From positions 18,476,001 to 18,540,000 of the forward strand of contig NC_068569.1 of the NCBI RefSeq assembly GCF_025698545.1: DNA of 64,000 nucleotides. The letters are read 5' to 3'. Origin of the DNA: Gossypium raimondii. Lineage: Eukaryota; Streptophyta; Magnoliopsida; Malvales; Malvaceae. Below are positions 2,907 through 23,517 of this stretch, piece by piece. The translations under genes were made by a program, and so were the position numbers. Position 1 is the first letter of the stretch, and each line of letters starts with the position of its first letter. The notes beneath the pieces were generated by a model that saw nothing but the letters and a program-made list of their open reading frames with translations, had not been told where the DNA came from and searched no databases.

Positions 2907-4523
2907 AAATTGATGTTAAATTTATTTATATAGATCTGGATAGATCAAATAAGGAGTTAGATCGAGAAATGGAAAAAGTGTCAGGTTAGTAGAGTTCCAT
3001 ATACGGGTAAGTGACGAGGTAAGTTTGTGTAACCAATTTGTGTATATTTATATGTTTGAATTGAATGTTGTGTACATGTGAATGTATAAATTCTATGAAA
3101 ATATGAAATTGATTACATGTTCAATAATGCCCGATAAGTAATAAGTCCCGTTTGAATAAATGAAATTCGATGGATACAGGATTTCCGTATTAGTTTTGGT
3201 TCTGGATATGTTGCGAACACACCATAGCTCGAAAGAACATCCTGTTATAAGTCCTCTCGAGCATCCTATTACATGGTTACTGCAAGCATCCTAATCGGTA
3301 TTAATCCTGCATATGTTGCAGACATACCATAGCTCTTTGTGAACGTCCTGTTATATGATCGGTATTGATCCTGCATATATTACGGACATACCGCAGCTCT
3401 TTATAAGCGTCCTGATATATGGCTACCCGGAGCTTCCTGATAATAGCTCTTCAGAGTTACTTGTTAAGCTCACATGAGCTTTCTGTTTCAATCTCTTATG
3501 ATTTTCCTGTTATAGCCCGGATAAGCTTCCTGTTACATAGCTCATATCGAGAAGGTCGGAACTTGGTCGGAGACACATCACACTATCCCTCGGACTTCTC
3601 GGTATATAAAGCAAGCTAAATTTTGGTATAATGGCATGTATAAGCTAAGTTAGGTATAATGATGAAATATTTTGGTTGTAACTAGCCATTGGAATGACTA
3701 GTGTAAGGCATATTTTAATGTAATTATATAAAGCCTTATCAAGTTTGATGTGTGATAAAATTGTGAGATGATGGGAAGTATACAAACCTATTGATGAATG
3801 GTTTTGAATTATCATAATTGATAAAGTATACTTATAAGGATTAATGTGTTTTTGGTAAGTTTAAACACTTGCACATATGAGATAATATGTCATGCATAAA
3901 ACTTGGTATTGGCATTGATTTGAGGGTTATGAATTGGCTTGTGAATATGTTTGGATGATGTTGTTGGTGAAAGGCAATTTGGGTGAGAAAAGTGGCCAGA
4001 AAATGGCCTATTTTTCGTCCACACAGACAGAGACACGGGCGTGTGTCTCAGCTGTGTGTGATACACGACCATGCGTATGGGCGTGTGGTTAGGCCATATG
4101 TCCCCTGCACCTAATTTTCAAAAATTAAATTGTCTACACAGCCTAGCACATGGGCATGTGGTTGGCTGTGTGACCCAAGTCAGAGAGTTATACGGGTTTG
4201 GACACGGGCTGGGACATGGCCATGTGCCTCACATTGAATGTCAGCACGGCCTAGGATACAGGCGTGTCACTTAGCCGTGTGAGCCACACGGGTATGTGTC
4301 CCCTGCACCTAAGGAAAATTTTTAAAATTTTGCGAAAAATTATCTGAGTTCTCGATCTAGTCCTGAATTATTTCTAATGCATAAATTGGGTTTCGAAGGC
4401 CCATATAAGAGACATTATGATTGATTGAGTTAGATTCTGGATATGAATATTAAATGATACGATTTAATTATATTTGATGTGTAAACTCTGATAATGCTTC
4501 GAATTTGTGTTAGGGATGTTACA
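2907..4523 (+). mobile_element. Gypsy-type LTR fossil ending inside a LINE
   Basis: A second LTR-like block, ending GGGATGTTACA at 4523. Its first half contains internal near-tandem units, and its second half contains the CACGGGCGTGTG-style blocks (4030-4300) often seen in Malvaceae Gypsy LTRs. The next base, 4524, is coding-derived sequence of a minus-strand LINE just before where its RNase H domain should follow, so this LTR sequence appears to have interrupted that LINE. Broken; no internal protein domain is seen. Confidence 0.5.
3180..3425. repeat. Internal near-tandem repeats of the LTR
   Basis: The phrases CCTGCATATGTTGC, GACATACC and CATAGCTC recur about every 60-75 bases three times, ending with related GCTTCCTG units to about 3535. 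This looks like regulatory-repeat structure within an LTR. Confidence 0.6.
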
Positions 4524-7500
4524 AAGTGATCTCTTGACAATAGCCTCGAATAAAACCCAGGAGTTCCTGCATGGAGAACATAAGACCTTCATGTATCATT
4601 TTATTCTTTCGATGCCATAAAGCCCATAAAAAAGTAATTAAAACCTGTTTGTTGTTTTCAGCTGCTGCATGAAAAGTGTTTACTAACCAGTCTTTGCAAT
4701 TCGAGGTAATCCCAACTGGAGCCATTGTGATATTTAAAGAAGCCTAGAGCTATTGTAAAACACCACAGGACCACATCAAGTGGTTAGAATCCTCCGGAGC
4801 CTCCTTACATAGTGGACAAACTACATCAACATTTAATCTTTGCTGAAAAAGATTGCTAAAATAAGGCACATAATTATTGAATAGCCTCCACATATGTACT
4901 TTTACTTTAATTGGTATGTGCATAGTCCAAAGTGTGTTGCAAAAATCCTTGTATTTGTCTACTGTAGACAAATTCTAGTCATTGTTCTGTAATTTTTCTG
5001 TAACTAAAGCTCGATACCTACTCTTCACGGAATACTCCCCAGTAGCCTCGTGTTTCCAAACCAACATATCGTGAGATCTGGAGCTGGCAAGAGGGAATGG
5101 TAAAAATTCGGTTCGCTTGGTCTTATCAACGAGTCTGCTGATCACCTCTTTATTCCAGGTATTTGTCTCAACATCAGTTAACTGGTTCACTGTAATCTAG
5201 GAAAGATTTATGCTCTGAACTGATAACCTACTATTTCCTGGACCAGGCAGCCATGGATCATTCTACATATTCACACTACCACTGCTACCAATACACCGAA
5301 GTAACCATTCTGCAACCATATCCCTGACACTACAAATACTCCTCCAAGTAAATGAAGGGTAAGAACCAACCTTAGCTGATAAAATATCTATGAATGGATA
5401 ATAACGAGCTTTTAAAACCTTCGATAACAGGCAATTGGGAAAGGAAAAAATACGTCAAGCTTGTTTTGCTAATAAAGCTTTATTAAACAAAAACAGATTC
5501 CAAAATCCCAGCCCACCAACAAACTTAGGTTTACACAACGCATTCCAATTACTCCAATGAATGGCTTTTGCTGATTTATTATTAGACCACCAGAATTTAT
5601 TCAAAATACCCTCTAACTTGCGACATAAAGTTTTTGGCAAAGCAAAACACTGCATAACATATACAGGGATTGCTTGTAGAACTGACTTAATGAATACTTC
5701 TTTTCCTCCAATCGAAAGATAACGCAAACTCCACCCATCAATTCTTTTCTTGAAATGGTCAACAAAATTAGCAAAAGCCCACCTCTTCTTTCTTCCAACC
5801 ATCATTGATAATCCCAAGTACTTCTCAAGGTTTGTAGTTACACGAACACCTAAAATGTCGGTAACTGTCTCTCATACATTAGATGCCACATTTGCACCAA
5901 AATAGATAAGCGATTTATTGAAATTCACCCGTTGCCCTGAATATTGTTTCGAACAGCATTTGCTCCCTCACGCGAGGCATCCCAAAAAAGAATACAGTCA
6001 TTTGCAAAGAACAAATGGTTAATTAAGAGTCTTTCCCTTCCAATTGGACCACCCCGAATTAGACCTTTCTATTTAGCCTCATAGAGTAGAGTAGAAAAAC
6101 CCTCTACACATATTAAAAATAGATAAGGGCTGAGCAGATCACCCTACATCAATCCTCTTGAAGGTGAAAATCACTCACTAGTATCCCCATTGAGACCCGC
6201 AGTATAGGAGACAAAACAAACACACCTCATAATGAGAATGACCCAATCAGTATGAAAACCCAATCGGATCATCATTCCAGCTAAAAAATCCCACTGAACA
6301 TGATCATACGCTTTACTCATATCGAGTTTAAGCGCAAAATTCCCTTTCCACTTCTCTTTCTTATTTTAAGGGAATGTAAAACCTTATATCCGATTAACAC
6401 ATTATCCGAAATATGTCTTCCTGGGATAAAAGCCCCTTGAGCTTCATTAATACAACATCCCAATATTGCACTCATACGCTCTTACAAGACTTTCGCAATA
6501 ATTTTGTAAACCACATTACAAAGACTTATAGGTCTGAATTGTGAAAGATTTTTTGGTTTCTCAACTTTATGAATCAAAACGATATGGTTTTTCTTAATTT
6601 CAACCATTTTAATTTCAACTTTAAAAGCAACTAAATAGTAGCTAGAAATTTCAGGTCTAACAATATGCAAGTACTTTTGGTAAAATATTACTTAAAAACC
6701 ATCAATCCCGGGGCCTTCAGGGGTGTCATCGTTTTAACAACATGCCCAATGTCCTCAGTGAAAGGTTTGAACAGCTCGTTATTCATACTCGTAGTGATCC
6801 GTTGCTTCATTAACCCAAACAACCATTCATCATCACCTGTCTCAGAGGTCGAAAATAAATTGTTGAAATACTTCAAGGCAAGCTGTAGCATCTTAGCTTT
6901 CGTTGAAAACCAACGTCCATCCTCCACTTTCAAACCAGTTATCCGGCTACGATTTTGGCGATGAACAGCGACTTTATAAAAAAAAGCTTGTATTTTGATC
7001 CCTATTTTTCAACCAGTTGATACGAGCTCGTTGTTTCCAAACAATTTCCTCTTTATCAACCTTCAAACTAAGGTCTAACTGAACATATTTAATTTCAGCC
7101 AAAACCTCATCAGATGGATCCCTACTATAAAGCTCAAGTAGTCGTTCTTCTAAATCCAAACAAGTTTTCCTTTGCTCCCTGTTCCGTAAACAACTCCATT
7201 GTTGGAATTGCTGCCCCATTTTCGTAAGCTTAACCGAGATACTTCTAGCCAAATCATCTCAATTTCTTTTTACCTCCTCAAAGGGATGTTCTAAACACCA
7301 TCTGGCCTCAAAACGAAAAAGCTTAGCACCATATCATTGAGCATCTCTTCGCATACTTGTCGTGTCCAAAAGAATCGGTAGTGGTTCGAAAAAGTACGAC
7401 TCAAATGCTCTACTTGGTATCCTGAAAAGAGATTCATCCAATCCAACGACGAAACTCCCTTATCAAGTCTTTCCCGTATATTAGTTGACAAAAATCTTCT

Positions 7501-7926
7501 TCTCTCCCACTTAAACCACCTACCGATGAAACCCAAATCATTAAACTCGCAATCATCCAACACGCTTTAAAACTCAATCATCTGTCGTTTTGATCTAAGA
7601 CGTCCACCCTTCTTCTCAACAGAATTCATGATCTCATTGAAATCCCTAATCACAAGCCAATAGATCATTTGATCATGTCCCAAATGTCTAAGCAGCTCCC
7701 ATGACCCATGCTTACTCCGTTCATCAGGATTCCCATAAAACCCTGTTAAACACCAAGCTTCTCCACATTCATTGTCATGAATATTACCATCAATATGATA
7801 ATAAGAATAGCTCTTAAGCCAAATCAACGAATTCCCTTTCCAACCCAAGGATAAACCACCTTTTGAACCTATCGCCCCAATATCAATACCGTTTTCAAAA
7901 CCACATTTCAACCTAACCATTTTCAT
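4524..7926 (-). pseudogene. L1-type LINE ORF2 remnant: endonuclease, reverse transcriptase, zf-RVT
   Basis: Read on the minus strand, pieces in several frames give the ordered domains of a plant L1 ORF2. The apurinic endonuclease is at 7926-7291, with GGLSLGW, FYGNPDERSKHGSW and RDFNEIM, where GDFNEI is usual. The reverse transcriptase follows at about 7250-5455, with KAPGLMVF in place of KAPGPDGF, FRPISLCNVVYKIIAKVL, and GRKKRWAF followed by LSIGGKEVFIKSVLQAIP. The zf-RVT domain is at 5190-4750, with GEYSVKSRYRAL and CPLCKEAPEDSNHLMWSC. The last piece (4725-4519) is the linker before RNase H; the RNase H domain itself is absent because LTR sequence begins at 4523. Many frame changes and stops mean it is not functional. 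The domain order is certain; the clade (L1) follows from it. Confidence 0.88.
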
Positions 7927-8059
7927 CTTTTTTTAACTTAATTTTGTTTCTATGAGAAACAAAATCTTGGGATTAATGGCCCTCAATTTTTTTTGAGCCT
8001 ACTAACAATCTGTGGTCTCCCCAAACCACGAACATTCCAACTTAGGATTTTCATTGCAT

Positions 8060-9330
8060 TCAGCTACTCTGCCCTGCAGAGCTAGCCGTTAAATCGAAAG
8101 AACCTCCTTCAATATTATTCCACGAAGAATTTATTGAAACACCCACTATCCGTTGTCGTTTCTTTCCTTCCAAAGAAATTAGAGGATCATTTTCCTCAGT
8201 CAACACCACATCCATGGGCTCACCAGCACTAACGACCCCATTCAAATCCCTACTGCCCATGTTACGCCAACTGTCATTCCCCCTAAGTAAAATATGTTCA
8301 ACAGATTCTAAAGGAATAAAAATGGGATTTAGAGACGTTTTCTCCATAACACCCATTGTATTACGCCCAACATCATGCTCCTCCCCTGAATTTCTATTTT
8401 TATTATCTCTTTCCATATCCACCCTACTGCACTCTGAACCGTCTGCTTCACGGAGCCATTTACTCATGACTGTATTTTGTCAGCGCACCACTGCACGCAA
8501 AGAAATATCCTATCAAAATACTATTTTTTATTGTTCAATTAGGGTCCGAAACAGGTAAAAACTCTCCCCATAACTCAGTTTACCACAAATGAAGCAAAAT
8601 AAACTCAGTTTCTCGTACTGAAAACGAGCATAGACAGTCCTCTCCTTTTCGATTAGAATTTTTTTCTTTCTTTTCAACGAAAGTGACACATCCAAGCGAA
8701 CCCGAATGCATATAAATTTTTTAATTTCTGTTGTCAGAATAGAAGTATCATACTCAAGAAACTGTCCCAAAAAATTACCAAATTGCTTGGCCATCGTTTC
8801 CTTCATCAAACCTGGAGGCAAATAATGTATTTGGACCCAAAACTCAGATAAATATAACAGAACTACTAACAGATCTTCTTCCATTTGGATTTTGTGAAGA
8901 ATAACCAAATGATTATTGAAAAACTATGGGGGTACCAAAAAGCACTCTTTGAACATCAAAATCATGGAAAAATTGAAAAAGAAACCTTTTGTCCCCTAAA
9001 TCCAAAATGCAAATCCCCCCAATAGGATGCCAAAGATCAGCCATGGTATTGCATAATGAAGGAAAATGAACAACACTATCAGTTAAACATCGCCCTACCA
9101 AACAAAATTGATAATTCTGATCCACCACCGTAGCCTCCTCATGAAACGCATCCTCTTCCTCATCAAGTAAATTCAGATTGGCTAATCCCTCCTCCATCAC
9201 TCAAAAACAAAGAAACTACCACACCAAAACTAAGAAAATTCAAAGGCAAAAAAAAAAGAAGGAAAAGAATAACCCCGTGTCAAAAGAAAAACAAAACCCC
9301 GTGTCAAAAGATAGAATTTTTAAAAAAAAT
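8060..9330 (-). pseudogene. L1-type LINE ORF1 remnant (DUF4283 plus zinc knuckle)
   Basis: This lies upstream of the ORF2 remnant on the same strand. The first open piece (9200-8913) starts MMEEGLANLNLLDEEEDAF, and it contains CLVGRCLTD and a run resembling the DUF4283 domain that opens plant L1 ORF1. The next piece (8908-8528) has FWVQIHYLPPG and then FCFICGKLSYGESF, a degraded CCHC-type knuckle (normally CxxCGxxGHxxxxC). A basic and acidic tail follows (8467-8060). The leader to about 9330 is A-rich on the plus strand. It is broken across frames. Together with ORF2 this makes a nearly full 5' end on a LINE whose 3' end has been lost. Confidence 0.75.
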
Positions 9331-11210
9331 AGATAAGATTTTAATTATTCAGGAGGTTACACATTTCATGCATGTGTGTAAAAGAAAGAAAAGGTGGATG
9401 ACAATAAAGATTGATATTGAGAAGGCCTATAATCGAGTAGAGGGAAACTTTATGGCGGATACTCTACTTTTTTTGGAGACTCCTACTCGTTTATTTAGGC
9501 TTATGAATTGTATTTCTTCGTTGACTATGCAAATTTTATCGAATGGGGAACCGTCAAATGTGTTTCTTCCAAGTAGGGGCTTACAGTAAGATGATCCTTT
9601 TTTTCATATCTGTTTGTTTTGGAAATGGAAAGGCTTGGCCATATGATTGATAAGGAAGTACCTGGGAAATCGATTCAATTTAGATAAAATGGACTAAGCT
9701 CATCACATTTGTTCTTTGCAAATGATTTAATTTTATCTTGCCAATTTGAACTAGATTAGATGGCATTAGTTAACAATGTATTGAGTGAGTTTAGTGTTTT
9801 TTCTAGTCATAAAGTTAATGCTATGGAAACTCAGGTGTTTTTTTCGAGTAATATTGTCAACGAAGTGGCGAAATCTCTTGCCCAAATGCTCGATTTCTAA
9901 AAGTTTAATGATTTGGCAAGTTACTTGGGAATGTCTTTGTTCCATAAACATGTCACTAGAAAAACCTTTCAGTTTGTTATTGATAAAGTGAGGAACCATT
10001 TAAATGGTTGGGATGCAAAACTCTTGTTAATGGCTAGTAGGGTCACTTTAGCTAAATCAGTTCTGATGGTTATCCTTAATTATTTCATGCGAATAACTTT
10101 GATATTTGTTGGAGTTTGTAACGATATTGAAAAGGTTTTTAGGAATTTCATTTGGAGTGCAATGAACCGAGAAAAAGAGGTGGCTCTTGTCAGGTGAAAA
10201 TATTTATGCCAAGCAATTGATAGAGGTAGTTTAGGCTTCCGTTCTGTAGTCTTACAGAATCAAACATTTCTTTTAAAATTGGGTTTCCATCTTCTAAAAA
10301 ATGCAAATGAGTTTTAGGTTAAAGTTTTGTACTCCAAGTATGGAGTCACAGAGGAAGTTCCTTTGTCTATTGAACGATCAAATTGCTAATTCATTTGGAA
10401 ATCAATTGTAAAATTTTGGTCCATGTGTTTCGTGATTGCCCAAGTGTTGGGTAAATTTTGAGTAGATTAATCCGAGGTGAACAAGCTAAAAATTTCTTCA
10501 ATCTTCCTATCCAAGATTTGCTAGCTGTAAACTCAACTAATAGATTAGAGGTAAAAGTGGATGTGGTTGAGTGAATTACCTTGTTTGGGATGTTTTTTTG
10601 GCTTATTTGGAAGCATCGTAATCAACTGGTTTTTAATGGTTTAAACTTTAGCTGTGATGATATTTATGCTAAAGGTACGGCGTGGGTGAAGCATGTGATG
10701 GAAGCAAAATTGTATAACGAGGTGCGGAATCCCTCGATGTCGAAACATTTAGTTTGGATGGCACCAAATGAGGGGTGGGTTAAGCGATGGTTCGGTCAGG
10801 GAGGAATCAGGACATGCGACAATGGGAGGTGTGATACGGGATCAAGTTGGTAACTGGCTATTAGGCTACTCTAGGCACTTGGGATCATGCTCTATTCTTG
10901 AAGCCGAATTATGGGGGATTTTTGAAGGGGTTAATATGGCTTGGAGTTTGGGTGTTCGTCGAATAGAGGTGGAATGTGACAGCAAAATGGCTTTACAGCT
11001 TGTTGCAGATTAGCAGCGAAACAAGAGCAGCAACAATAGCAGTTTGTGATTGGTATAAGATATGGTCTCGATGTGTGATCCGCCTTGAGAAGTATCCGTT
11101 AAACATGGGTATCGAATGACGAATCAGCTTGCAGACGGCATGATGAAGTTGGCTTATGGTCAACCCTTGTGGGTGGAACAGTTTGGAAGTCCTCTGGAAC
11201 ATCTATAGAG
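9331..11210 (+). pseudogene. 5'-truncated L1-type LINE: reverse transcriptase to RNase H
   Basis: This element enters in mid reverse transcriptase: IIQEVTHFM, then MTIKIDIEKAYNRVEG at about 9400. The catalytic motif at 9712-9735 reads FAND rather than FADD. The thumb region has LNGWDAKLLLMASRVTLAKS, and RNase H follows at 10768-11010, with DGSV, EAELWGIFEG and VECDSKMALQL carrying the D, E and D residues. It ends with QLADGMMKLAYG and a stop near 11207. Stops and frame changes break it. Truncation at the 5' end is normal for target-primed insertion. It sits head to head with the minus-strand LINE and is not its missing piece, because it has the opposite orientation and repeats the RT domain. 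Confidence 0.85.
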
Positions 11211-11379
11211 AATTTTTCTTAATGACACCACGTGTATTATAAATGTTGTTGATGGTAGCTAATATTTTCTGTTACGTGCTTCTATTACGAAAAAGAATAG
11301 TTGTAAACTAAACTGAGCCTCTAAAATTTCACTTGAAGTCTTAAAAAAAAAACTCAAATAATTAATCACTGCACATTTT

Positions 11380-12655
11380 GGCTATTTTACCAAAATAATC
11401 TAAAAAAAATTATATTTACAAAAATAACGCAGGTTTAAAAATAATTACCAAAATAACCTAAAATGAACAGTAAAATGGGGTGGTGGCCTGTCAATGGCCG
11501 GCACCACCTGGTATTTTGGACCCATGATTGCTTGATAGTTGTGTCAGACTTAAAAAAATAATTTTTTTGTGTATTTTTTTTAAAAATCGTATCATACTGG
11601 TATACAGGGAAAAAAAAAGGAAAATTTTTTTTGGGTGCTGGCCTATCAATGGCCGGCACCACCTTTACGGGAAAAAATAATATTTTTTTACATTTTGGGG
11701 TGTCATTGGCCGGCACCAGTATACAAAAAAATTAAAAAAAAAATTTTGGTGGTGGCCTGCCAATGGCCGGCACCACCTTTATGTAAAAAAAAAATTATAT
11801 TTTAGGGTGTCATTGGCCGGCACCAGTATACGAAATTTTTTTAAAAAAATTTTACTTTTTTGGTGGTGGCCTGCCAATGGTTGGCACCACCTTTATGTAA
11901 AATTTTTTATTTTTTTTACATTTTGGAGTGTCATTAGCCAGCACCGGTATACGAAAAAATTAAAAAAAATTTGGTGGTGGCCTGCCAATGGCCGGCACCA
12001 CCTTTATGTAAAACAATTTTTTTTTACATTTTGAGGTGTCATTGGTCGGCACCAATATACAAAAAAATAAAAAAAATTTGGTGGTGGCCTGCCAATGGCC
12101 AGCACCACCTTTATATAATTTTTTTTTTTTACATTTTGGGGTGTCATTGGCAGGCCATCACCAAATTTTTTTTTTATTTTTTCGTATACTGGTGTCGGCC
12201 AATGACACCTCAAAATGTAACATAAAGGTGATGCTGGCCATTGGCAGGCCACCACCAATTTTTTTTTAATTTTTTTTTAATTTTTTCATATTCTAGTGCT
12301 GGCCAATGACACTCGAAAATGTAAAAAAAAAAAATTACATAAAGGTGGTGCCGCCATTGACAGGCCACCACCAAAAAAAATTTAAAATTTTTTCGTATAC
12401 TGGTGCCGGCCAATGACACCCCAAAATGTAAAAAAAAAATTCCTGTAAAGGTGGTGCTGGCCATTGACAGGCCAACACCCAAATTTTTATTTTTATTTTT
12501 TTTCCCTGTATACCAGTATGATACGATTTTAAAAAAATACACTGGTTCAGGCCATTGACAAGCCAAAACCAAAAAAATCATTTTTTTTAAGTCTGACACA
12601 ATTATAAAACAATCATAGGTCCAAAATACCAGGTGGTGCCGGCCATTGAGACCCC
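11380..12655. mobile_element. Large foldback DNA element with inverted tandem array (Mutator-like foldback, inferred)
   Basis: Sequence around 11478-12130 is repeated in reverse complement across 12140-12655. The outermost arms match: GGTATTTTGGACC near 11510 pairs with GGTCCAAAATACC near 12619. Each arm is a tandem array with a period near 110 bp. It alternates a core A (GGTGGTGGCCTGCCAATGG then CCGGCACCACC; at about 11749, 11861, 11971 and 12081) and a core B (GTGTCATTGGCCGGCACCA then GTATAC). At the centre (12136-12165) A and B are fused. The probable left outer end GGCTATTTTACCAAAATAA at 11380 has no partner on the right, so the right outer end is lost. No transposase is seen. Open frames across it are translations of the repeat, not genes. 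Confidence 0.8.
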
Positions 12656-12932
12656 AAGAAAATGTCATTGTCTTTCAAAATTAAATCAAAGATACAAAGA
12701 GGGTTTTAGATGGGGAGGAAGACATGGTCCAACATTAAAAAATGGACCCTCGGAATAAATTTCAGTCATATTTTCATGATCTCTTTGTTGTGACTTTTTT
12801 ATCAGCGTGGCACTCGTGGAAAACTAATGTACTAACTGTTACAAAACTCTCCACCGCCAAAATAATCAGCTGTGATGTCAAAATCAAGTACAAATTATTA
12901 TTTGTCCTTTTTAAAGCAAAAGTACCAATTAT

Positions 12933-12938
<6 letters not shown>

Positions 12939-12968
<30 letters not shown>
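12939..12968. repeat. (TA)n microsatellite
   Basis: Uninterrupted TA run of about 15 units. Confidence 0.9.
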
Positions 12969-12971
<3 letters not shown>

Positions 12972-14443
12972 TGTAAAGCACACCTAATTATTTATGGTTT
13001 TTCGAGACTCGAGTTGATGTGATATATTATAAGAGTAAAGTCACTAATTTTTTAGGAAGATCGAAATTAAATTATAATATTTATAATAGTAAAAAAATAA
13101 TTTTACAATTTTAATAGTCTCTATATTTATAATTTTTAAAGGATTAAATTAAATTTTTATCATTTTTAGGGGGTCAAAGTACAATTTTATCTTTACTAAT
13201 TTAAAATTTTAAAATAAATGGCCTAAATGAAAATTTTTTTCATTTTAGGAGGGTCGGGGTCTCTACCTGCCCCTGGTTTCGCCCCTAACTTATGATGAAT
13301 TTGACGTGTTTAGTAGAAGTTTTTTCCACGAAAAATGACAATAAACATTTTTAAATTTAAAAATTTAACTCCAATTGTTATTTTTGTATTAAATTTATTG
13401 ACCTAATATTCTAAAATTTAAAAAAATCAAATTTAATGTCATATTTCACATTAAAATCATCAGATCAAAATCAAAATTCATAGAACATATATTTAGAAAG
13501 CAGTTTTGAAATATACCACCAATTTTTATTTAAATAAATTCAATATTAATTACTCCTTAAAGAAACATTAAACTTGCAAATACTGTTTCATGTCATATTT
13601 AAGGGTAAATATTTTATTAAATTCTAAAATGAGATAAAATATTTTAAAATGCTCATTTTAATTTGTAATTTTTGCCTATATTTTAATATAGTTATTTAAT
13701 TAAATCTCACTAAATCAAACATTTTGAAATAATAAAATTTCTATATCATTTTGAAAGAGTTTGCACACAAATAACGAATATTTATTTTACAAATATTATT
13801 TCCAAAATAAAAAGTATAAATATTAAATTATCAAATTAGTGCATTGTACAAGTATACAAACTAGTATTATATATTTCAAGGTCTTAGATTCCGGGAGATA
13901 TGGAGGCTTAATTTATTAACTCGTGACATCACACACTTTGCTATAAATGGGTTCTATAAAATTGATAAAATTTTAACAATTTAAAACATCATATGAATGG
14001 ATTAAATTTTAATTTTATAAAACTATTAAATATTTGAAACAATATTATTTCAAAGATATATATTATTTATAAATTTAAAATAATTAGTTTTATTATTAGT
14101 TAAAATTATGTAAGTGAAGATATCAAAACAGAAATTATTATTTAATTATAAATTAAATCCAAATTTTAAATAATAATAATTAAAATCAAATCTTAATTAC
14201 ATATATTGTCATCATTAGAGGATTACTTTCTTAAATTAATGGTTCGTTCTATATAAATTATTTATTTCAATCACAAACATTGTACTCATTTATTTAAATG
14301 AATGAACTTGTTTTTAATTTTTTGTTAAATTAATAAATGTAAAATTATACTTTGGCTCCCTTAAAAATATAAAAATTTGATTTAATTTTTTTTTAAAATA
14401 TAAAGATATAAAATATAATTTAAATTCAACCCAAAACTTTTAA

Positions 14444-14570
14444 GTAATTGAAGTATGCGTAAAACGCGTGATATGCGCGGAACAATAAAGGAATGAGGTT
14501 GTAGTTTGAGTAATTGAAAAATGCGTGAAACGCGTGATATGTGTGGAACAATAAAGGAATGAGGTTGTAG
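14444..14570. repeat. 66 bp direct tandem duplication
   Basis: Two adjacent units start at 14444 and 14510. Both contain TGCGT, AAACGCGTGATATG and GGAACAATAAAGGAATGAGG, differing at only a few positions. Each holds a CGCG-rich patch unusual for the surrounding AT-rich DNA. The high identity suggests a fairly recent duplication. Confidence 0.85.
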
Positions 14571-15099
14571 TCACAGACACGAGCATTTAGAAAAAGGAAA
14601 CTCTAAATATGGGTCCATTGACCAAATTGTTGGTCCTTCATGGCAGCAACATAACCATAAATTTGTGGGTCCATTTTGATTTTGAGGACTCCTAGAGGGA
14701 ATTCCCGCATTTAAAATTGAGGACGGTTAATTTGTAAACATTTATATTGTGACAAAAATAGTGTAAAAGAAAGGACAAAACCGAAATGCCGAGAAAAACC
14801 TTAAAGAATGGACGGAGACAAAATTGGGCAGTATCAAGTATCAACCTTAAACTAACAATAGAAATTGGGATACCAATGAAAAATAAGTGATAAAATATAT
14901 TTTGGTGGTTAAAAATATTTTTATGAATGTTAATTAAAGGATTGATTTACAAGGGTTTAATTGGGTGTAAGTTTTTCATTAGTGTTTAATTGATTTTTAT
15001 TTTTCTATTTATTACTATTAAGTAAATATGTATATCAATCAAACACCATTAATTTAAAAAAACACACACACATTCATTAATTACATTAGTATTATTGTT

Positions 15100-19628: not shown

Positions 19629-20975
19629 ATGTTTTCTGTAAAAGAACTAGTTGAATCAGTTCCCCTCACTTCACTTCCTTCCAACTATATCTTCGGTAAT
19701 ACAGAATCTAATCGTCATTGTTTGCTCATGGAACCAGAAGAAACAGTCCCCATCATAGATTTCTCTCTGCTCACATCTCATGATCCTCATCAACGATCCA
19801 AAACCATTACTCAACTCGGCAATGCATGCTTGAACTGGGGATTCTTCATGGTAAACTGATCGGTTCAATTACATATATATACATATAAATATGTATGTAT
19901 GTATGTTTTCTCTTACGCACTGATGAAAGGTCTTAGCGTGGGTTATCTTGTTGTTTTGAGCAGGTAATAAATCATGGAGTGGCGGAGACATTGAGAGACG
20001 AAATGGTAAGGGAAACCGAAAGTTTCTTCGATTTAAGAGGGGAGGAAAAGAAACAGTATGCAGGGAAGAAGCTGTTTGATCCCATAAGGTGTGGAACCAG
20101 TTTCAATGCTAATGTGGATAAGACTCTTCTTTGGAGGGATTATCTCAAGATTCACGTTCATCCCCATTTCAATGCTCCTGCCAAACCTTCTGGCTTCAGG
20201 TACTTCATGCTCCATTACTTTTTTTGTTTTTTAATGATTTCTTTGCCAACTCATGAACCGGGAGATGTTTCTTTTTGCTTGCTTTGCTTAACAGCAAGGT
20301 TCTGCAGGAATACTGCGAAAAGACTGGAGAAATGGCAAATGAGCTGCTTAGAGGGATATCTGAAAGCCTGGGACTGGAAGAAAGGTACATAAATGAGAAA
20401 CTGGGAGTGGAATCTTCGGAGTCTCATCAGCTGTTCGTTGCGAATATGTATCCGCCTTGCCCACAACCTGAGCTTGCAATGGGTCTACCCCCGCACTCGG
20501 ATCACGGGCTCCTCACAATCCTCATGCAAAATGGGATTCAAGGCCTTCAAGTGATGCACAAAGGAAAATGGGTTCTTATCAATCCCCTTCCCAACTCTTT
20601 CCTCGTCAACACAGGCGATCACATGGAGGTACTTATGGGTTTCCTTTCTTGTATGATTTTTGATAGTTGATTAAGACGTTATTGGTTGAAAAATGGATCC
20701 CAACCCTTTTGCAATGTTGATTTCAGATACTGACCAACGGCAAGTATAAAAGCGTGTTGCACAGAGCTGTGGTGAACAACAAAGCCACGAGGATATCCAT
20801 TGGAACTGCACATGGCCCACCGCTTGACACCCTCGTAAGCCCAGCAAAGGAGCTGGTGGCGGACGACGCCGGCCAAGCATATCTAGGTATCACGTATAGG
20901 AACTACTTGGAGCTACAACAGAGCAAAAGTCTCAGTGGAAAATCCTGCTTGGATCGCCTCCGCTTTTCGATGTGA
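19629..20975 (+). CDS. 2-oxoglutarate/Fe(II)-dependent dioxygenase (DOXC class, DMR6/F3H-like)
   Basis: Four exons by frame and GT-AG phase: 19629-19850, 19964-20199, 20295-20628 and 20727-20975, giving 346 residues, a normal length for the family. The N-terminal DIOX_N part holds VPIIDFSLL and then GNACLNWGFFMVINHGV, which spans the first splice. The catalytic double-stranded helix has the iron ligands H220 and D222 in PPHSDHG and H276 in VLHRAVV, and the 2-oxoglutarate-binding pair R286 and S288 in RISIG. All key residues are present. Enzymes of this type hydroxylate or desaturate small metabolites in the cytosol. The sequence resembles the group annotated as 2-oxoglutarate-dependent dioxygenase 19 or DMR6-like, but the substrate cannot be read from it. 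A TATA box at 19530 supports the start. The last coding part is duplicated just downstream. Confidence 0.93.
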
Positions 20976-21225
20976 TCTCGTTCTAGTCACTGTGTTCATC
21001 ATTTCGTCACTTAATATCAGGTGTGCCATATTTTAATCATAGAAAAAGGAAAAAGTTGATTGGTGTGGAGCTACAACAGAGTAAAAGTCTCAGTGGAAAA
21101 TCCAGCTTGGATCGCCTCTGCCTTTGAATATGATCTCGGTCTAGTCACCGTGTTCATCAATTCGTCACTTAATATCACGTGTGCCTTATTTTAATTCATA
21201 AAAAAGGGAAAAAGTTAATTGGTGC
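20909..21225 (+). repeat. 158 bp tandem duplication of the dioxygenase 3' end
   Basis: The unit from 20909 to 21066 covers the last 67 coding bases and the start of the 3' untranslated region. It is repeated at 21067-21225. Both copies share GGAGCTACAACAGAG, AAAAGTCTCAGTGGAAAATCC, TCGTCACTTAATATCA and GTGTGCC. The second copy reproduces the C-terminal codons (ELQQSKSLSGKSSLDRL) but lies after the real stop, so it should be untranslated. It may lengthen the 3' UTR. Confidence 0.88.
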
Positions 21226-21935: not shown

Positions 21936-22548
21936 CTGGACTGGTGAAGACGTTTACTTCTAGTTCACGATTAGGTAGTAAATAATATTGTCGAATATTA
22001 AGTGATTGAGTTTATATCATTAGCCAATTAAATATAAATTTCAATTGGATAATAATAAAAATATTCTTATTTTACAAAATAAATTATATTATTTTAAGAA
22101 ATATAATTTTTTTATTTTATATCACGCAAGCCTGATAACTTTAAACATTTATACTTTATTATTTATATTAATTTTTTCATACATATAGAATTATAGAATT
22201 TTGTTGTTTACTCGCTATAACCTAGTACAGAATTAGCAGATTGGACTTTTCTACCCAAAAATGAAAAAAGTTGATTGGATTTAATGAATGCCGGTGCAAG
22301 AAACACGGGGATACCAGTCTATCCAGTTACCGAGAGACTTTCCTTTTCGGGAAAATGACGGATAATTACCGACCAAATGCCAAATATAGTTCATTTTAGT
22401 AGCGAAAAGCTTGATAGTTGACAAAAGAACCGTTGGTTTTTTTACTTTATCCATTCGTAACTGCATAAATTAACCTCCTTTTCCATGAAAGCTAACTGTT
22501 ATCTTATCCTCTTATCTCTTCCATTCTTGTTATTTTTTCTTGAATTCA
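21936..22548. promoter_or_regulatory. Intergenic region and promoter of the ANTH gene
   Basis: AT-rich to about 22200, then more balanced up to the start codon. No clear TATA box can be chosen. A pyrimidine-rich leader (22500-22540, TCTTATCTCTTCC) precedes the ATG. Confidence 0.4.
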
Positions 22549-23517
22549 ATGGGGTATCGGAAAAACCTAAGAATAGTGTGCGGTAACCTGAAAGATAAGG
22601 GTTCATTGATCAAGACCGTCTTATCATCAAAGCCCCACAAATCTGCCGTTCGTTGCGTGATCCTACGCGCCACCACCCACGGCTCCTCCTCCCCACCATC
22701 AAATCATCGAATTGCCGCCGTCATCTCCCTTGGCCTTGAATCAAAAACCGAAGCATGTTCTTGTATCCAAGCTCTCATGGATCGACTGCATAGCACGAGC
22801 AATGCGTTGGTTGCACTGAAATGCCTCTACACCATCCATAACATCATAGGGAAAGGGTTCTTCATCTTGAAAGACCAGCTCTCAATGTACGAATACTTTG
22901 GGGGTCGAAATTTCCTCAAGTTGTTGACGTTTCGAGACGATTTGGATCCAGAAACAAGGGAAATGTCCAAATGGGTTCGATGGTACGCAGCCATCTTGGA
23001 ACAAAACTTGCTGGTTTCCAAGGTCTTAGGCTGTCACCTTTACAGTAAACGTGCCAAGAATGTTATCGGTAAGGAAAAAGACAATTTCTCGAGTTCGTTG
23101 AACTCCGATTTACTAAATGATATCGATGCTCTCGTTGAGTTCGCATGCCAGGTAGGTGACCTTCCCGATTCGCTTCATCTTCAACGAAAAAGTTTGGTGT
23201 ACGAGATTGTAAGATCCGTCGGCGAAGATTACAGATTGGTCCAACGTGAAATCGGTACTCGAGTTGCGGAACTCGAAGCGCGAATGATGAGTTTGAGTTC
23301 TAGCGAGTGGACTCAGTTCCTGAATTCGTTAACCAAGTTCGAGGATTGTAAGGAGGGAATATCTTTGTTGTTTAGAAACAGAAACAGGAACGATGAGTTG
23401 TGGGATTTAGTGAAGGAAACAAAGGCAAAGCTTGTGGCAGTGATGAAAGAGAGAGGAAATGACGGCAAAAGGACGTTAGTGGTTAGATTCTTACAACGAA
23501 CGAGTGGAGCGAGTTGA
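22549..23517 (+). CDS. Putative clathrin assembly protein, ANTH domain (At4g40080-like)
   Basis: A single exon of 322 residues from the ATG at 22549; the frame is open a little further upstream but has no earlier ATG. The N-terminal half is an ANTH domain of the AP180/CALM type: SAVRCVILRATTHGSSSPPS, then ALVALKCLYTIHNIIGKG and GGRNFLKLLTFRDD, then MSKWVRWYAAILEQ. The helical C-terminal half (SLVYEIVRSVGEDYRLVQRE) also follows the plant At4g40080-like group. ANTH proteins bind PtdIns(4,5)P2 and clathrin to help form coated vesicles, often at the plasma membrane. The short intronless form lacks the long clathrin- and adaptor-binding tail of AP180, so it may be mainly a lipid- or SNARE-binding adaptor. 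Gene family assignment is confident; the exact orthologue is from memory. Confidence 0.92.
   Translation: MGYRKNLRIVCGNLKDKGSLIKTVLSSKPHKSAVRCVILRATTHGSSSPPSNHRIAAVISLGLESKTEACSCIQALMDRLHSTSNALVALKCLYTIHNIIGKGFFILKDQLSMYEYFGGRNFLKLLTFRDDLDPETREMSKWVRWYAAILEQNLLVSKVLGCHLYSKRAKNVIGKEKDNFSSSLNSDLLNDIDALVEFACQVGDLPDSLHLQRKSLVYEIVRSVGEDYRLVQREIGTRVAELEARMMSLSSSEWTQFLNSLTKFEDCKEGISLLFRNRNRNDELWDLVKETKAKLVAVMKERGNDGKRTLVVRFLQRTSGAS

Follow-up and report, generated by a model that had tools for sequence, protein, structure and literature searches.

The palindromic array at positions 11380–12656 of the window (the 64,000-nucleotide stretch of the Gossypium raimondii genome that was analysed) is, on sequence grounds, a worn and gene-less copy of a Mutator-superfamily transposon (MULE) with internally repeated ends of foldback type. 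Assignment to the Mutator superfamily is due to the 9-bp target-site duplications and to the MuDR, MULE and SWIM transposase domains found between the same arrays in longer copies (the target-site duplication of the superfamily is 8–11 bp; PMC6446971). A dispersed family of array-ended MULEs, of which the window copy would be a compact member without its right terminus, is very probable, and for this family we infer core binding, mobilisation in trans, internal deletion and unit turnover.

Direct reading of 10800–13200 of the window reveals two inverted tandem arrays, with many inverted pairs, around a centre near 12150. The parts are as follows.

11380–12656, no strand assigned: whole element, read as a compact non-autonomous foldback MULE copy without its right terminus; a genome repeat between flanks that are single-copy save for weak partial matches.
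11371–11379, no strand assigned: left flanking 9 bp, GCACATTTT, at the place expected for a target-site duplication; it has no exact partner elsewhere in the window.
11380–11478, + strand: outer terminal sequence, starting GGCTATTTTACC, common to other copies (from copy comparison).
11479–12109, + strand: left array of ten cores, with A/B alternation after the first two (from core search).
12136–12163, no strand assigned: centre, where the first half of a B core is fused to an inverted half A core (from sequence reading).
12184–12651, − strand: right array of eight inverted cores, some of them degenerate (from core search and arm alignment).
12652–12656, no strand assigned: right end of similarity; the outer terminus of ~100 bp seen on the left side is absent (from arm alignment).

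The foldback over more than 1 kb described in the initial annotation is present, and the self-alignment proposed there as a check displays the central symmetry. When the left arm (11484–12097) is aligned with the reverse complement of 12145–12656, 430 of 465 ungapped pairs are identical (92.5%) with 196 gap columns, and the local score of arm against arm is 301.1 (200 dinucleotide shuffles gave a mean of 25.0 and a maximum of 44.6). The arms are colinear save for one A+B unit (~114 bp) on the left only, one core on the right only and small indels; the left-only unit and the right-only core make up much of the 196 gap columns. The arms have gained or lost units; the initial annotation had suggested unit amplification inside a foldback element. 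Also correctly described were the tandem unit of ~110 bp and the two alternating cores of each arm: TRF gives a 107-bp period in 11630–12155 and 12268–12501, and the cores are A (30 nt) and B (28 nt), whose search patterns partly overlap, so that some core sites are listed twice. Units within the arrays are diverged, not identical.

CCGG had been ascribed to every core, which is wrong as stated. From a reading of the core listing it is at the core position in 8 of 18 whole cores, and there are nine CCGG in the whole element. Near self-complementarity of the cores, when these are folded as DNA, applies to the two A cores tested (z −2.87 and −4.80) and does not extend to the B core, two copies of which are identical (z −0.01). 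As RNA, the window element has a predicted minimum free energy of −720.1 kcal/mol (12 dinucleotide shuffles: mean −297.7, SD 10.0, lowest −320.7), and the predicted fold is essentially one long hairpin with one left unit looped out, in keeping with the very stable hairpin that had been anticipated.

Of the limits first given to the element, the start at 11380 stands. On the right, the arm stops at about 12656 and the outer terminus (~100 bp) was not found in the window copy. Nor was a recognisable target duplication of this copy found in the window, where the nearest one-mismatch match to GCACATTTT downstream is at 13651; since its right end is lost, the copy cannot show one. The window gave no match to any of five queries taken from elements of the family, of which three are pieces of transposase, and yielded neither transposase nor plant mobile domain (PMD) sequence. 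Rfam gave nothing at gathering score on 10800–13200, a tRNA scan of the window found none, and a distant search of a plasmid collection gave no match.

Elsewhere in the window, ORFs in 4000–11300 resemble decayed LINE fragments by eye (two upstream ORFs were searched, with no Pfam match). A 66-bp unit is present twice in tandem at 14439–14571 (91% matches) and a 158-bp unit likewise at 20908–21224 (90% matches), the ORFs just before the latter resembling 2-oxoglutarate dioxygenase by eye, and a 342-aa open frame on the + strand at 22489–23517 has an ANTH domain match (7.7e-12).

The feature is far from solitary. A search of the 751-Mb genome with it gave 190 matches on many chromosomes from the best 40 of 482 candidates, and a 27-nt core pattern has 47 exact genome matches and 411 with up to three mismatches, the reversed control having none. 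The flanks of the window copy match themselves alone, apart from one weak partial match each. Both termini are present in 13 copies among 20 genome stretches examined (these stretches carry L numbers below), and L051 and L052/L053 add two, making 15; one outer terminus was not seen in L032 and in L033/L034. These numbers are lower bounds, coming from the best 40 of 482 candidates for the feature and the best 40 of 512 for the terminus. All 15 two-ended copies start with GGCTATTTTACC or a variant of it. The initial annotation had named, as support for a transposon family, numerous genome copies sharing the arm symmetry, and such copies were found.

Identical 9-bp target-site duplications flank seven of the 15 (L035, whose right end was set 3 bp further in after the alignment was viewed, L037, L040, L047, L049, L050 and L051), and in two more, L044 and L046, 8 of 9 positions match. 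The remaining six are below 8 of 9: L031a has 4, L031b 7, L036 5, L045 7, L048 4 and the 8.1-kb copy L052 3; a shift of the ends by no more than 2 bp brings L031a and L048 to 8 of 9. Among 210 mismatched flank pairs, none reaches 8 of 9 or more.

Copy sizes are 8.1, 6.1, 5.7, 3.6, 3.0, 2.8, 2.2, 2.0 and 1.2–1.4 kb. Long inverted arrays are present in the copies examined, and the core order in the 13 two-ended copies and the window copy is that of long, internally repetitive inverted repeats with variable unit number. In L051, positions 1–1011 match 6148–5155 inverted at 75%. Two compact foldback copies lie ~1 kb apart in L031 (2060–5783; C5:30926060–30929783), and these are the closest over the length of the window copy among the best 40 of 482 candidates. 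Several terminus and core matches are within ~23 kb at C2:40231093–40253710, among the matches listed; this crowding is perhaps local hopping or an expanding cluster.

Coding sequence between the arrays ties the family to a transposase. The 6,148-bp L051 (C10:18142772–18148919) has both termini and a perfect 9-bp duplication, and between its termini are MuDR DBD (1.3e-10), MULE (8.6e-10) and SWIM (2.2e-4) matches in successive frames of one strand. L052 and L053 together form a copy of 8,138 bp (C12:2651460–2659597) with both termini, in the order terminus, array, transposase similarity, PMD similarity (same strand), acidic conserved frame, inverted array and terminus. By Pfam, L033 has MULE (3e-14), MuDR DBD (1.6e-8) and PMD (4.1e-29) and L046 has MuDR DBD (1.2e-9); by similarity, transposase pieces are inside the arrays of L034, L036, L038 and L050, and adjoin the left array of L032, the right side of which is outside the stretch. 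Because the transposase frames are interrupted in the copies read, no active transposase source was identified.

In L033/L034 and L052 the arrays enclose PMD sequence. That every long copy carries it was considered and rejected, as it is inside the arrays in L033 and L052, outside the element in L032 (a PMD-like stretch of 33–40% identity at 642–1251), and without a match in the two-ended 6.1-kb L051. A conserved acidic open frame is also inside elements (L036 5495–5998, L038 3853–4248, L044 3419–3798, L051 1900–2183 and L052 8044–8540); that of L036 has no Pfam match, and the frame may belong to the PMD protein or represent another gene.

Beyond the copies read, a PMD match is within 8 kb of 26 of 109 listed transposase matches, always downstream, the expectation under uniform placement being ~0.35 (the transposase matches are the best 109 of 4,809 candidates and the PMD matches the best 150 of 4,164, with 150 of 151 PMD matches used). 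The orientation differs with relatedness to the L033 query. For transposases of less than 66% identity to it, 18 of 85 are paired with PMD, each on the opposite strand; for those of 66% or more, the figure is 8 of 24, with seven on the same strand. When 61 places of arrays or termini, selected by hand, were compared with the transposases, 7 of the 24 nearer ones and none of the 85 farther ones had such a place within 10 kb. Example transposase/PMD pairs are at C8:58323274/58320556 and C12:2652995/2656271. PMD in plant MULEs, often antisense, has already been tabulated (PMC6446971), and its capture by MULEs has been described (PMC5418596).

In the terminal inverted repeats of this family, a terminal sequence of ~100 bp comes first and the array of A and B cores lies inward of it, and the family extends from coding two-ended copies down to compact ones whose arrays meet head to head. 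The GC-rich cores, conserved within variable A/T spacers, would be binding sites for the family's transposase. In a comparison of 378 sites from 16 elements (A and B mixed, ungapped), the core half beside a 14-bp anchor has an identity of 0.545 between elements (shuffled letters, 0.315), and the spacers have 0.472 and 0.389 (shuffled, 0.411 and 0.375 respectively). This pattern, with the short cores conserved and the A/T spacers loose, would suit a series of sites bound by protein, and for Galileo binding of the transposase to sites within such repeats has been shown (PMC3688188). Transposase from a longer relative may have bound the gene-less copies and moved them in trans, through a cut-and-paste process that duplicates 9 bp of the target. 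The genes themselves would have been lost through internal deletion.

The two arms of one copy may stay alike because units are gained and lost and are exchanged between arms. The nearest neighbours of 167 units were in the same arm for 32, in the opposite arm of the same element for 42 and in other elements for 93, the values with shuffled labels being 6.0, 6.4 and 154.6; the same-element total is 74, as against a mean of ~12 and a maximum of 25. Judged in this way, unit similarity is partly element-specific. An excess of mean unit scores within elements was seen in 10 of 14, and L035, L044, L047 and L048 have none. By eye, the centres of eight compact copies differ, which speaks for independent collapses or for a centre rearranged afterwards, and a single amplified compact subfamily was set aside on this ground. 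The window copy and the two L031 copies have the same sequence leading into the centre, and these three could thus have a common origin. The weak points of the account are the six of 15 copies below 8 of 9, the right end of L035 set after the alignment was viewed, the window copy without recognisable duplication, the four of 14 elements without the unit-similarity excess, and the interrupted transposase frames.

It is extremely improbable that the feature is no transposon and arose as a local satellite, by plain inversion of a tandem array or as an artefact of assembly. Palindromic arrays are difficult to assemble and foldback ends can seed satellites, as reported for Tetris (PMC4079207), but copies with the same terminus and with target duplications are on many chromosomes, and the units of the window copy are diverged rather than identical. 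Satellite and misassembly were set aside on the single-copy flanks and the target duplications. It is doubtful, though it deserves weighing, that the compact copies serve mainly as sources of hairpin RNA, whose transcripts would fold along the arms, be cut to small RNAs and silence the family, a role compatible with a MULE derivative. The high stability predicted for the hairpin speaks for it, as does the precedent of maize Mu killer, which arose from MuDR by rearrangement and silences it (PMC3440606), and the cores are rich in C-to-T-type changes. Transitions across 259 A cores average 11.2% at 2 CG, 11.8% at 4 CHG, 7.5% at 16 CHH and 0.4% at 8 A/T positions, rates that carry no significance test, leave out cores with more than six differences and include the C/T polymorphic position 13, which raises the CHH mean. 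The A set is preferred because the two core patterns overlap and because the B set, with a mixture as its majority sequence, is not pure. The excess suits, indirectly, the decay of methylated cytosine. However, the window copy is without transposase sequence, so its small RNAs could reach only the ends, and the Mu killer paper describes short antisense transcripts unable to form large hairpins, offered as a new model (PMC3440606).

It is also quite improbable that the arrays bind, in place of transposase or in addition to it, a counter-silencing protein encoded by the element, the PMD protein of full-length copies being the candidate. Among Arabidopsis elements, the VANDALs have VANC proteins, which bind short motifs multiplied as tandem repeats (PMC5735166), and PMD sequence is found between arrays here and downstream of related transposases among the matches listed. 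A review already suggests that PMD proteins may be made by elements to oppose silencing (PMC8616336); the arrays as the PMD target are a proposal added here. Set against it are L051, two-ended at 6.1 kb and without a PMD match, and the occurrence of PMD in many plant MULE groups (PMC6446971), which means that it is not tied to such arrays. The further thought of a two-part system, in which PMD protein would bind the arrayed cores and keep the ends open and compact array-only copies would exploit it, is by analogy and a long shot. If true, PMD-carrying MULEs would be a second, independent case of the role that VANC has for VANDAL21.

The reading of the window feature as a foldback-ended MULE copy places it with a kind of element that is already known; here, other members of the family in the same genome carry genes. 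The family has the Mutator superfamily features tested, namely the 9-bp duplication, MULE (DDE) and zinc-finger DNA-binding transposase sequence between the ends (at the level of the family, not in the window copy) and long terminal inverted repeats, together with the foldback structural features of internal repetition and variable unit number within those long inverted repeats. The nearest described combinations are Tm1 and FARE. Tm1, a Mutator/Foldback element of root-knot nematodes (PMC3169594), likewise has terminal inverted repeats that are composite, repeated internally and variable in length; its target duplications are 9 bp long, and some copies carry transposase while others are gene-less. 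It differs in its animal host and its motifs, and the portions of its description used here do not mention a PMD gene. FARE of Arabidopsis, compared by description only, is a plant foldback whose long copies reportedly carry a MULE-domain transposase (Windsor and Waddell 2000, as cited in PMC3169594). Galileo of Drosophila also has long inverted repeats with internal repetition, within which its transposase has binding sites, but belongs to the P superfamily and so to another transposase superfamily (PMC3688188). In VANDALs, terminal inverted repeats are absent or short and degenerate (PMC6446971), unlike the long inverted arrays here, and the VANDAL21/VANC21 motif, as given in PMC5735166, is unrelated to the A and B cores. 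Mu killer is similarly an inverted MULE derivative, but its own inverted repeat holds transposase gene sequence (PMC3440606), whereas the window copy has end arrays only and no inverted transposase sequence in its hairpin. The open-licence papers searched gave no report of this array-ended family.

A striking palindromic array is thus accounted for by the ends of a Mutator-type transposon, and gene-less foldback copies are tied to coding relatives within one genome. Binding of transposase to foldback arrays has been shown for Galileo and in 2013 was called untested for Foldback and Phantom (PMC3688188). The series of copy sizes, with its unit-by-unit variation, could be used to test foldback arrays as transposase binding sites.
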